Shown here piece by piece: positions 40,701 to 46,700 of a stretch of 64,000 bases of DNA (position 1 is its first letter; each line of letters opens with the position of its first letter). Position numbers and translations under genes: made by a program. The notes beneath the pieces are model-generated. The model did no database searches, was not told the origin of the DNA, and was given only the letters and a program-made list of their open reading frames with translations. The DNA is from Tomocerus qinae (lineage: Eukaryota; Arthropoda; Collembola; Entomobryomorpha; Tomoceridae). Location: NCBI GenBank assembly GCA_020055645.1, contig CM034547.1:50718909-50782908 (forward strand), written 5' to 3'.

Positions 40701-43700
40701 GCGTTCTAATGTCCTATGACTTTCCATTTTGAAAGGTATCACCATTTGATTTTAGGTATAAAATGTATTTTTCATTCTACTCCCTAATAAATCATTTATC
40801 ATACGTAGGATTCTATTAAAGTCAGATCGAGTTAAGCCGTGGACTTCACTTGTCATGAATGCTGCACAGGCCAAAAAGCATGCTTTAATGGAGAAAATAT
40901 AATTTATTATGTTCTAGATGGGAAAACTTAAAGCAGAATATCGGCAAGTCCAGACAACGGTTTCAAATCATCTTGGAAATTTCCTCGAGATGGAAAAATC
41001 CGTCGCATTTTGCTATTGATGACATCCGTCTTGTTGACTGCTTTCCAAGTAAGTTATCAATATTTAACCTGTTCTTTGCCAAATCAGTAGCTTTACAAAA
41101 ATATCACGCACTGATCTGAAGCTTTGCCCCTTGCTGGCTCCCGGAATAAATTAAGAATAAATAAATTAACCTTATCTTAAAGGCAGGAAAGATACAACTA
41201 GAGAAATTATTCGTTCAGAAAAAAAATCTGTGTTTGCACATGATTCCATTATTTGGTAATAAATCTCGGGAGCGTTTTAGATTAGATTCCCTGTAGCCTC
41301 CACTCTTAAATATTGAGTTACAAGAAAACGGATACTTTCTTTAACTACAGATACTTTGTTATTATCACACCATCCAGGAAAACACTCTCAACTTACACGA
41401 AGGTATCCAAACTAAAGAAAAGCGTCGTTTCAGCATTTTCCCAAAATACTTGCAAGTTGCAACATTTTCCATAACTGTTTTACTTTACTTCTGTATCTAT
41501 TGAGCAATAAGCATTACAAGCTGTGCAAACTTACAGATATTTCAGATATACCGAGAAAGGAGGAAACATATAAGGCTGTAATGTTATCAATACTAAATCT
41601 TAAGTTTAGGTACATATACCAAGATTATCTGAGCATTGTCATATACTGGAGATACAGGACTTACCACATCACATCACACAGCAGTATCTTTTGACTTGCT
41701 TAAGGTTCGCTGTGAATACCTGATCACATCTCTAAGCGTCTCACGACCCTCTCACGGTAATAAAACCAATCCCACGAAATCTCATTCATCTTCTGTTTCG
41801 CTTTGTACGACAAAACTTGGCTGGAATACTGTAATCCAGCGGCAGATCCAATTCAATCCGGGTAGACTAAGACCAACACTAAAATCACTCCGGTATAGCC
41901 ATCATAGGAAAACAGGAGAGCATAAGACGCTTAGGTCTTAACTCAATCTTCTCACATTGCTTATTTATTTTCTTTACAAAAGTCTAAGTCTACCTAGCGC
42001 TGTAGGTATATTTCATCTTTGAACTTACATTCCTTCTCTCATGTACTATGATTTTGCTTTGACACATCCAAATGGAATTGAAGGTCAATTCACCCAGTCT
42101 CATATTCATACCTTGTTCTCTAATGGATTTTAAAGGTCCCGAGTCATGCAACAAAACGTGTTCCAGCGACGAATTTCAGTGCAGTAACAACATGTGTATC
42201 AAACGTAACCAACTGTGTGACTTCAACAAAGATTGTCTGCATGGAGAGGACGAGCAGCAGAATTGTGGTAAGAAAACCGCATTTTCCATTTCAATGAGTT
42301 ACTACTAACAATGTCTGTGTCTCATTTTCGGATTGTATATCTATTTCACTGGACTGGTGTAAAATTAAACAATTAAACGAACACATGATGTTCGATTGTA
42401 ATTCTATGAGGACGACTTATGGGAAGGGGTTATATTATATTACTAAGTAGTAGACCTCTACTTTCCGCGATAGACCACACTATTTCAAAGAAAGAAAAGA
42501 CGCGCCATTGCGCTTCCAATACAGCCTCTATCCACTCTAAAACGCCATTAATTTCAAAGATGCTTGCATGAAAAAAGGGGTTGTATTTCTTTTTTGTTTA
42601 AAAAAATACTTTTTGATGGGCAGGGTGGGTATAACCCCTTCCCATAAGTCGTCCTCATAGAATTACAATCGAACATCATGTGTTCGTTTAATTGTTTAAT
42701 TCTATTTCGGACGACTTATGGTCGGGGTTATATTATATTACTAAGTAGATGTTCAAATAACATGCAAACAATATTACACGAGTTCCAAAATGGTAGCATT
42801 AAGTTTTGTATATTATTCTATGAATGTTATACTTGACATGAGCTATACAGTAACACCGATTGAGCAAAGTCTGTATTGTAGGCTATAGGCCGATTGTAGA
42901 ACTTTGCGAACACCATTGAAGTCATTCAGTCTTTCGAATGACTTTCAAATCTATGCCGTTGATGAACTTGACAATGACTCAATCATTATTCTGGCACTAT
43001 CGATAGGAACTTGTTTCCTTATAAATGCTTGTAGGATAACTTCGCTGCCACCAGGGAAAGTTGGTCCGCTATTCGATGTCTTGTGCTAAATGGAGACAAC
43101 AAAAGATTGTCACTTGGTGAAAATTTTAACCATTTGTCTTTTGCTAACTTAGCAAAAAGAGGGTACCAATGCTGTGATGGCCAATGGGGTACCACTACAA
43201 TCCCTTCAGCTTTGTCATCGACAATCTTTTTCAAGGTTCTGCCTACCATATTAAATGGTGGAAAAGCATAAAAGTTTCTCTCATTCCAATTTATTGTAAA
43301 GGCATCTATTGCCTCCGAACTAGGATTTGGTTTCCATGAAACGAAACTTTTACATTTATTGTTGATTGAACTGGCAAAAAGATCTATTTCCGGTTCACCA
43401 AAACAATCAACAATTTTTTCAAAAGCGAATGGGTTTAATTCCCATTCATATTCTTGGTCCCGACTTCGAGACTCTCTGTCTGCTACCGTGTTTTCTTTTG
43501 AAGGAATATATGAGGCAAATACCCATATATTCCTGAATTCACAGAATTGCCAAAAGGCTCTGGACACGGAATTAAGGTTTGAAAATTTTGGACCTCCCAT
43601 TTTATTTATATAGGCGACAGCAGTGGTGTTGTCAATCCTAAAAAGCAATTGACAATTACTAAGATCTTTAGCATAAGATTTGAGAGCATATAGAGCTGCT

Positions 43701-46700
43701 ATTAATTCCAGCTCATTAATATGTAACTGTCTTTGCTTTTCCGACCATAGGCCTCGAGTTGTGATGCCATTACAAACAGCTCCCCATCCGGAACGCGAAG
43801 CATCCGTAAAAATTACCCTATGAAAACAGTCGTTTCTAATAGGGCCGATACCAAATTCCAATTTCTTTTGCCACCACAATAAATCCAACTTAGATTGGCC
43901 ACTTAATTTCATGACAGTGTCGAAATCGTTATCAGACTTTCGCAAGGCATCGCATTTTTCTTTCTCAAAAATTTTTGTATACAATATACAAAAAGAAAAA
44001 GCATAGCGGACTGAAATTAGTTGACCTATCAGTTGCGCAAAATCTCTTATTATGCAACATGTGCTATTAATAAAACGTTCTACGTTCTTCGCAATCTTTT
44101 TCCTTTTTTCTGTGGTGATACTGATCTCGTAGCATTTAGAATTAATTACGTAACCGAGATATTCCACCATTTGGGAGGGAACAATTTTTGATTTCTCCCA
44201 ATGAATTAGAAAACCAAGGCGTTGTAAAAACCCTATGGTAAAATTAACATTATATTGGCACTCAGTTTCAGTTGGCTCTATGCAGAAAATGTCATCTAAA
44301 TAGTCAACAGATGACAATTTTTGATTCCTCAAGTAGGTCATAGCCACTTTCATAATTTTTGTAAATAAGTATGGAGCTATATTTAGACCAAAAGGGATGC
44401 AAGTAAACTGGTAAAGTTTTCCTTTCCACTGGAAACGGAAATACTTCCTATGTTTTTTGTATAAGGGGATTAAAAAATAGGCATCTTGAAGGTCAATAGT
44501 TGCCATATAGCTATCCCTTCTCACCAGTTGTATTGCGGATCGAACATCTGTCAACTTGAAGTGAGGAGGATCAATGAAATTATTAAGATTTTTTAGGTTT
44601 ATTACAAACCTAGAGTTTCCGTTTTTCTTGGGAACAAGAAAGTAGGAAGAAATAAATTCATTGTTTGCATGAGAGCATAATTCAATAGCGCCTTTTGTGA
44701 GAAGCTCATTGATAGACGCTTGCATCTTCGTCGTTTCTGTAGGACTTAATTCTGGCTCACCAGGGACATAAACTTGTTTAGGCTGACTGTTAAAAGGCAC
44801 CCTGTACCCTTGTAACCAACCTAAAACTACTGGAGCAGCCTTAATGTTTTGCCATTCCGAAAGGAAAAATTTTAATCTTCCTGCAATTATTACCTGGTCT
44901 GAAGTTATTTCCGATTGCTTGTTTTCTTCTGCCCGCCGTACTGACGATAGGGTTTTGTCAGTGACGGGCGTTCGGAGTTTAAAGACTCCTTGGAATTTCC
45001 TTTTGTGGATGTGCGAGAATTTTTCGATCCACTTTTGTTGCTTGTTCTGGTGTTAGGTTTAGATTTCTCCTGTAAATCCAAAGCCGACTTTTCGATCTCT
45101 TTTGCTGTTTTTATACGTTGAGTAAGATCAGCTCCAAAGAGATACTCATCTACTAGCCCAGATTCCGCTGCTTTTCTCATACCTTGCTTTAAGCTAGGTA
45201 ACAAAGCTGAACGTCGCTTAAAGGACAAATTGTGATGTAGGTCACAAAGTAAACGTCCTGAATCGCCCAAGGAGCGATAAATGTCTTTAAAATCCTTTTG
45301 ATTTTGTAGGGCTAGCATTAAATTCAGACCAGAACCCAAAGCTGAAACCGCTGTTGAGACTTGTGAATGAATGTTGACCATTTGATCATCCTTCTTCTTG
45401 GAATCGTTTTGCAGAAAGCCATCAAACTCTATGTTTAGCTTTGGTACGGAGAGAAATTTCGAGTTCTCCGGGACCGGATATTTCTTGGAAATATTGGTAC
45501 GGTCATCGGCCATTAGGCCGTCCTCAACAATCGGTTTCCAACGAGATAAGATCTCGGAATGCATTGGAGGGCCGTACTCTATTTTCTTCTCTGGAGCACT
45601 TCCCAATGATTCCAATATGTCGTCATCCACAGGAATATGCATCTCCAGACTATCATTGTCGATAGCAGATTTGTCGGTAGCAGAAACACCGTGTCGCGAA
45701 GCGATACTGTGTAATGACGAATCGTCAGATTCGGTACTGCTTGCTCTGTCTCTCGTCACAGTAACCTTGTCCGTCTCGAAGAGATGGACAGGCTTTGAAT
45801 TCGACTCGACGAGTTGAATTCGTTTTTTGGTCTCCAGTTTTTCCAGTCTACTGAGTATTTCCCTATAAATATCAGTGGACGAGGATTCACTTCTTGAATA
45901 GAGTGACCGGTGACGAGACCGACTTCGAGTAGGGCTCCTGTTATGAGATCGTCGAGTAGAGCGCGATGAGCGATCAGTTTCGGAATGACGATCTCGATGA
46001 CGACGGTTATGACTTGTTTCTTCATAATGACGATGTTTTCTATCCCGATGTCTTCCGCTCATGTCTGTAAGGATTCTAATAAATGTCAATATTAAATTCT
46101 GATGAATGACAAAATATCCTTACCACTACCAGGTGTAATATCAATATTATTTACAAGAGTGAAGGATAATACAAATATCACATTTTCATACAATTGCAAA
46201 TATTTATGAGAAAAACATACCACCCCACCGAATTTACCGATATATCTTCGTTAAAATTGAAAACTGAAGATTTTTCAGGAGGGATAATTAGGCTGCGTGT
46301 GGTTGCTATCGCACAAAGAGAAGTAATGGCGTTTTAGAGTGGATAGAGGCTGTATTGGAAGCGCAATGGCGCGTCTTTTCTTTCTTTGAAATAGTGTGGT
46401 CTATCGCGGAAAGTAGAGGTCTACTACTTAGTAATATAATATAACCCCGACCATAAGTCGTCCGAAATAGAATTACGTTCTTGTTATTCCTATGAAGTAT
46501 ATGATAATTATACGCTTTCTCCCAAATAACTTACTTTTGCTCAAAGGACAAAGTAAAGTTGCTCTCATCGGCGAACTACAGTAATTAATACCACTAAATA
46601 AAGTTTTCTGTCCCTAGTCTTTTATATGTAGTAATCTAATGCACGTAATTTCGATTAGTAATGCATTAGTTTTGTTAGGAAAAACTTTAACATTAGAGCA

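Follow-up and report, generated by a model that had tools for sequence, protein, structure and literature searches.

In the 64-kb window analysed here (a single stretch of 64,000 nucleotides from Tomocerus qinae), the gag/pol overlap of a DIRS1-like retrotransposon carries the heptamer TTTAAAC followed, after 7 nt, by a stable predicted hairpin, an arrangement that is almost certainly the programmed −1 frameshift signal of this element. The original prediction, made from one copy of the element, correctly described the heptamer, spacer, hairpin and phase, and this observation is confirmed. It did not note that the window copy has no usable recombinase gene, nor that the slip site appears to serve the recombinase in addition to pol. 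Our overall explanation, to which we give a probability of roughly 0.76, is that this −1 signal would yield Gag-Pol, and that a spliced route would additionally yield a fusion of Gag with the tyrosine recombinase (YR). Ribosomes translating gag would reach T TTA AAC and be held there by the hairpin 7 nt downstream, with a fraction presumably slipping back by one base into the pol frame to give Gag-Pol. In the second route, pol would be removed as an optional intron, from a phase-0 GT just past the gag stop to a YAG, also in phase 0, where YR begins. Either RNA would yield Gag, as the donor lies downstream of the gag stop; the spliced RNA would retain gag, its stop and the slip site, so that the same −1 shift would carry ribosomes via a short leader into YR and produce Gag-YR. 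The level of both enzymes relative to Gag would then depend on a single signal, with splicing picking the enzyme. From the sequence comparisons below it is likely that YR is reached by splicing out pol, and probable that Gag-YR is made through the same slip site.

The element lies on the minus strand, from approximately 46475 to 42360, and consists of the following features, listed from its 5′ end (window coordinates; a slash marks a predicted splice point).

46321..46475, minus strand: left inverted terminal repeat
44905..46062, minus strand: gag-like open reading frame, ATG at 46062, stop TAA at 44907-44905, no Pfam match
43019..45052, minus strand: pol open frame, −1 relative to gag, 677 codons, with a reverse transcriptase (RT) match and weak matches to RNase H and a Dam-like methylase; first ATG at 44725
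44977..44983, minus strand: slippery heptamer TTTAAAC, T TTA AAC in the gag frame
44970..44976, minus strand: 7-nt spacer TCCGAAC
44931..44969, minus strand: putative stimulatory hairpin of 13 bp, with an 11-nt loop and a 2-nt bulge
44892..44893, minus strand: donor-like GT, CAG/GTAATA, in phase 0 relative to pol, at a distance of 14 nt from the first base of the gag stop
43086..43087, minus strand: acceptor-like AG, TTGTCTCCATTTAG/CAC, CCATTTAG/, with a pyrimidine-rich tract upstream
42951..43085, minus strand: N-terminal remnant of the tyrosine recombinase, 44 codons and then a stop, catalytic part missing
42630..42748, minus strand: internal complementary regions, able to pair with the left and right termini (pairs I2 and I3)
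42360..42553, minus strand: right inverted terminal repeat and its extension

Assignment to the DIRS1-like group is supported by the inverted terminal repeats and the internal complementary regions that pair with both termini (pairs I1-I3), and by the domains of pol, an RT (RVT_1, 1.1e-23) and an RNase H whose match lies below its curated cut-off. The Dam-like methyltransferase match at the end of pol is weak in the window (E 0.012) and reaches 3e-6 in a relative, L012 (27.4 bits, against a cut-off of 28.1). Described DIRS1-like elements (PMC3266345) likewise have inverted terminal repeats, internal complementary regions, gag, RT-RH-MT and a YR frame overlapping the end of pol; the parts of that paper covered here describe neither a frameshift signal nor an intron, and the window copy differs in lacking the catalytic part of YR. 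Three other copies in the genome (L009, L010 and L011) share this layout and are 99.76-99.83% identical to the window copy over the full element; as each match stops at the element's termini or only a few bases from them, these are copies at different sites. We infer that this YR-deficient derivative spread recently, YR presumably being supplied by other elements; the window copy, which lacks most of YR, would if mobile need the recombinase in trans.

In the window copy the gag and pol frames overlap by 148 nt, across which TTTAAAC is, as had been proposed, the sole phased X XXY YYZ heptamer; it is read TCT TTA AAC in gag and GTC TTT AAA CTC in pol. The 7-nt spacer (44976-44970) is as originally described, whilst the two-part stem that follows it is present but, at 13 bp, slightly longer than the 11 bp first given. 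Its arms are GCCCGUC/GGCGGGC and ACUGAC/GUCAGU, with the 2-nt bulge on the 3′ side, and its minimum free energy (MFE) of −20.5 kcal/mol compares with a shuffled mean of −10.8 (z −4.24; 0/200 shuffles as good). A phased slippery heptamer within the overlap and a structure 5-9 nt downstream (7 nt in the window) are the arrangement looked for in a −1 site. Dinucleotide shuffling of the overlap generates a phased TTTAAAC in 0.27% of cases and any phased XXXYYYZ (Y = A/T, Z not G) in 46%; given these frequencies, the window copy alone is suggestive rather than proof, and it is the comparison across elements that decides.

For this comparison, the 334-Mb host genome was searched with the pol protein and 66 of 621 candidates were scored; the 67 matches listed correspond to 65 elements including the window copy (junctions L009-L032, L033-L072 and the window), so that all loci derive from one genome. 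Loss of the heptamer from related copies had been named in the original prediction as the observation that would speak against a frameshift, and the reading survives: among the matches listed, TTTAAAC is present at the junction in 64/65 elements. The exception (L058) is a decayed copy with TTTAACC and stops in pol, and its near-identical locus L087 has TTTAAAC. Both gag and pol frames are open across the heptamer in 54 of the 65 elements listed, pol being −1 relative to gag in 54/54; the frames of the remaining 11 are interrupted, and 10 of these still keep the heptamer. TTTAAAC also occurs in two copies found via DNA similarity (L077, L078) and in six extra junctions picked from deeper matches (L085-L090). 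The 72 heptamer-bearing junctions were grouped at 80% identity around the site into 39 lineages, after dropping L073-L076 (duplicates of the window copy and L009-L011); L058, having no heptamer at the junction, lies outside the 39. Because TTTAAAC served as the anchor for the 39 representatives, its presence in all of them follows from how they were chosen, and 64/65 is the informative count.

The relatives are well diverged, with pol identities to the window copy of 39-52% in 11 aligned lineages. In the alignment of 12 pol proteins the Phe-Lys (FK) pair encoded by the heptamer is invariant; the next residue to be fully conserved is W67, and L26, A57, G58 and L60 come close to it. The base after the heptamer is T in 38 of the 39 representatives, and the other flanking bases vary. 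One explanation of this pattern dispenses with frameshifting, TTTAAAC being kept for Leu-Asn in gag and Phe-Lys in pol, and pol being translated by internal or non-AUG initiation. Since Leu-Asn in one frame and Phe-Lys in the other force TTTAAA by the genetic code, the hexamer alone cannot separate the two readings. The peptides around the site are, however, variable in both frames; under a −1 shift, moreover, the FK codons are never read, so their conservation would then have no protein reason. The pol frame is also closed immediately upstream in six elements (L032, L039, L049, L055, L065 and L067), where it opens at the heptamer itself.

Initiation codons bear on the same question. In the window, as noted from the outset, RT-frame ATGs are missing ahead of the RT motif: the first pol-frame ATG (44725) lies 86 codons past the heptamer, 53 past the AGRL motif, and also downstream of a GY motif common to most relatives. 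The claim holds less generally across the family: of the 37 lineages that could be assessed (L087 and L088 are too short, and the motif of L024 and L059 was placed by eye), 29 lack a pol-frame ATG ahead of the AGRL-like motif and the other eight have one. Seven of these have the ATG between heptamer and motif (L023, L029, L055, L056, L059, L062 and L067), and L066 has it upstream of the heptamer. Such an ATG could start most of pol, in keeping with internal initiation; all eight lineages keep TTTAAAC too.

Structure downstream of the heptamer is a general property of the junctions. With starts 4-10 nt downstream tested, the best stem averages −15.5 kcal/mol, against −3.4 for shuffled sequences, and it beats shuffles in 36 of the 39 lineages (no more than 3 of 60 shuffles as good), starting 4-9 nt downstream; in the other three, L029, L059 and L069, the stem does not outperform shuffled sequence. 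Mean MFE z-scores are −2.60 at the site, −0.04 upstream and −0.30 downstream, and values below −2 are found in 29/39, 2/37 and 5/37 cases, respectively (both sets include one wrong row of the 39, L027). Two types of stem are apparent: one built on GCCCG...CGGGC, mostly with long loops, and the other compact, with unrelated arms and loops of a few bases. A pseudoknot, which had been raised for the window hairpin, was also considered and has weak support, pairing between loop and downstream sequence being −7.5 versus −6.6 kcal/mol shuffled (better in 24/37). A search of known RNA families gave none above its gathering score and one match far below its score.

In 22/22 lineages of the GCCCG type the spacer is exactly 7 nt. 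Their five core pairs (GCCCG/CGGGC) never vary and so provide no covariation; they also form codons in two frames. Evidence for pairing comes from the next four pairs, in which 15 cells are changed on both sides (shuffled mean 5.2; 0/500 as high), falling to 1-5 when the pairing partner is slid. The paired percentage and the covariation score also exceed every shuffle, and two of five covariation measures are not above shuffles (pairs changed on both sides, 62/500; pair types, 163/500). The proposed comparison of other copies, carried out on the 39 junction lineages of the same genome, thus finds both a kept spacing and two-sided changes in stem pairs, that is, conservation beyond the protein sequence, within limits set by the invariant stem core and the code-forced hexamer. 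Genome-wide, the pattern of heptamer, 7 nt and GCCCG...CGGGC has 71 matches, and its reversed counterpart has 0. Two places (G000 C3:15427687-15427740 and C3:27580600-27580653 (minus)), which account for four of the 71 rows, look unrelated; there TTTAAAC is followed by a very GC-rich hairpin unlike the DIRS junctions.

Relatives with a fused frame provide a natural control. Four loci (L081-L084; G000 C2:24591800-24592100, C1:104414180-104414480, C2:9022150-9022450 and C5:19106640-19106940) were chosen for an open frame of 718-1043 codons at the pol match, and 301 nt of each was read; a gag-like tail runs into pol in a single open frame, no shift is needed, and 0/4 have TTTAAAC. The invariant FK amid variable flanks, the missing ATGs, the diverged hairpins at near-fixed spacing and this absence from fused frames argue that TTTAAAC is kept as a signal and not as mere codons, and make expression of pol without frameshifting extremely improbable. 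By eye, each of the four fused loci also has a donor-like GT near the gag/pol border, in phase 1 (G/GT of a Gly codon) in 4/4, a hint that these elements may reach their recombinase through splicing and need no shift. A further DIRS-like pol match (G000 C1:102942794-102943048, minus) lies in an open frame of 2108 codons, the longest among the matches listed, which is possibly a full gag-pol-YR frame or a host fusion.

The third frame, YR, is 334-347 codons long in complete relatives, with a Phage_integrase domain in 3/3 scanned (L012, L018 and L032). It is −1 relative to pol in 16/16 elements of 11 lineages (the L011 row is not YR). This phase would suit another −1 shift where pol and YR overlap, of the kind found in two-shift viruses, and isolated phased heptamers occur in L018/L019, L027 and L032. 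These heptamers differ, though (TTTTTTT, TTTAAAT and AAAAAAT), and the other listed YR elements have none, such that a second shift is very unlikely.

The start of YR instead resembles a splice acceptor. In 14/14 readable lineages a pyrimidine-rich stretch with YAG at its end marks the start of the frame, always at one column of pol (L026, without a readable 3′ end, is outside this count; L020 and L031 were checked by eye and agree). Acceptors were assigned by homology of position, since a crude acceptor score did not always place the homologous YAG at the top; the acceptor of L028 is GATAG/ATTCC. The upstream tract is 0.74 pyrimidine, compared with a background of 0.48 (one wrong row of 12, L028, is included in the mean). 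The acceptor AG is kept whether the pol residue is Arg (AGA/AGG) or Ser (AGC in the window, AGT in L032).

At the other end of the putative intron, 37/38 lineages have a phase-0 GT at a distance of 5-26 nt from the first base of the gag stop; L087 has no such GT in its short piece, and L088, in which the gag frame stops just past the heptamer, was left out. Where several phase-0 GTs were present the best one was taken. As a phase-0 GT is found in 47% of 5584 same-size windows of the pol body, its presence alone is weak evidence, and we place the weight on two other properties. The donor reads GTRAGT in 18 of 37 lineages, as against 0 of the 5584 windows, and it is preceded by G at −1 in 29/37 (absent in eight), as against 114/646 (18%) before Val codons in pol bodies. 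The top donor score is at least 3 in 26 lineages and falls in phase 0 in 24 of these, using weights that approximate vertebrate frequencies; L030 has a GT in phase 1 that scores slightly better, and for L055 and L069 the highest-scoring site is a phase-1 one.

Joining donor to acceptor leaves the leader-YR frame open for 362-373 codons in 11/11 lineages, with a leader of 26-36 codons before YR; the implied intron measures 1805-1820 nt and is 2 mod 3 in 10/10 measured. Conserved donors and acceptors in compatible phase, as expected of an intron, are thus present, with donors that are weak in about half of the lineages.

An alternative account keeps the frameshift and treats the GT and AG as codon coincidences, with YR made in another way, such as coupled, internal or non-AUG initiation. 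In its favour, the residues encoded at the donor (Val) and the acceptor (Arg) are semi-conserved, GTRAGT is missing in 19/37 lineages, and none of the 69 genomic matches recovered for the 11 joined lineages spans the splice join as a copy of a spliced RNA would. The first YR-frame ATG lies 22-208 codons in, within 22-52 codons in some lineages (L023, L012, L015 and L021), but past codon 100 in 6/11. Coincidence also fits poorly with the retention of AG at Ser codons, the enrichment of GTRAGT and of G at −1, the pyrimidine bias upstream of the acceptor and the agreement of phases in all 11 joined lineages. We consider this account unlikely, and pol as an optional intron the better explanation of how YR is reached.

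More broadly, we favour, on balance, a model in which a single −1 signal upstream of an optional intron controls two enzymes as Gag fusions entering the particle at a dose fixed by the slip, splicing sets their ratio, and the arrangement is conserved in the sampled DIRS lineages of this genome, other lineages having a fused gag-pol frame in its place.

Each part of this layout has parallels. U_UUA_AAC is listed among the most shift-prone heptamers in a review of frameshifting (PMC5009743, parts covered). Coronavirus-type −1 signals share the heptamer, a similar spacing and a strong downstream structure with the site described here; they differ in that a simple hairpin seems enough in this case, pseudoknot pairing being weak, and in that the host is a tyrosine-recombinase retrotransposon. 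In animal LTR retrotransposons and retroviruses pol is likewise −1 to gag, with a slip site near the gag end, and the same review, as far as covered, counts pol in the −1 frame in 28 of 51 surveyed animal elements. DIRS elements, unlike these, have inverted repeats and a recombinase in place of LTRs and integrase, and here the recombinase also appears to depend on the same slip site via splicing.

Retroviruses translate gag-pol from unspliced RNA and env from spliced RNA. The proposed route is similar in that pol is spliced out to reach the 3′ gene; it would differ in the position of the donor, which lies past both the frameshift site and the gag stop, so that the spliced message would encode a fusion to Gag and would depend on the shift as well.

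For DIRS elements themselves, long frame overlaps are reported in half of 28 elements (PMC3266345) and YR is called 'frameshifted' relative to the other frames (PMC3783388), in the portions of these papers covered; within such portions, the literature describes the frame overlaps and not how the second and third frames are expressed. No slippery site is described for DIRS elements in the parts covered of PMC3783388, PMC6681497, PMC3266345, PMC9004415, PMC1224870, PMC9210276, PMC2685390, PMC5633606, PMC8547959 and PMC4157794, nor an intron in those of PMC3266345, PMC5633606 and PMC8547959, and DIRS is not mentioned in the first 300,000 characters of PMC5009743. The suggestion that a −1 signal had not been described for DIRS elements accordingly holds for the open-access literature searched, subscription DIRS papers being outside that search.

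A conserved −1 signal would explain the expression of pol, and pol as an intron that of the recombinase, with exact protein and RNA junctions predicted for both. If correct, tyrosine-recombinase retrotransposons would join the groups that set the ratio of Gag to enzyme by frameshifting, and the layout, in which one recoding site serves two alternative messages, would apparently be new. The many naturally diverged hairpins around a fixed heptamer also offer material for a study of stimulator design.

Contig scans of viral and prokaryote collections gave no confirmed relatives, and tblastn of the window pol against phages gave no match. A reverse transcriptase on a small Wolbachia plasmid (NZ_CP087956.1:1656-2102) shows weak similarity to the pol of the window copy, at 27% identity across 22% of the query (5e-8). 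Separately, one of the loci retrieved (L079:1501-2841; G000 C1:36670928-36672268) contains a nearly complete copy of mitochondrial COX1 (family positions 1-436) within a chromosome-size contig, which reads open under the invertebrate mitochondrial code.
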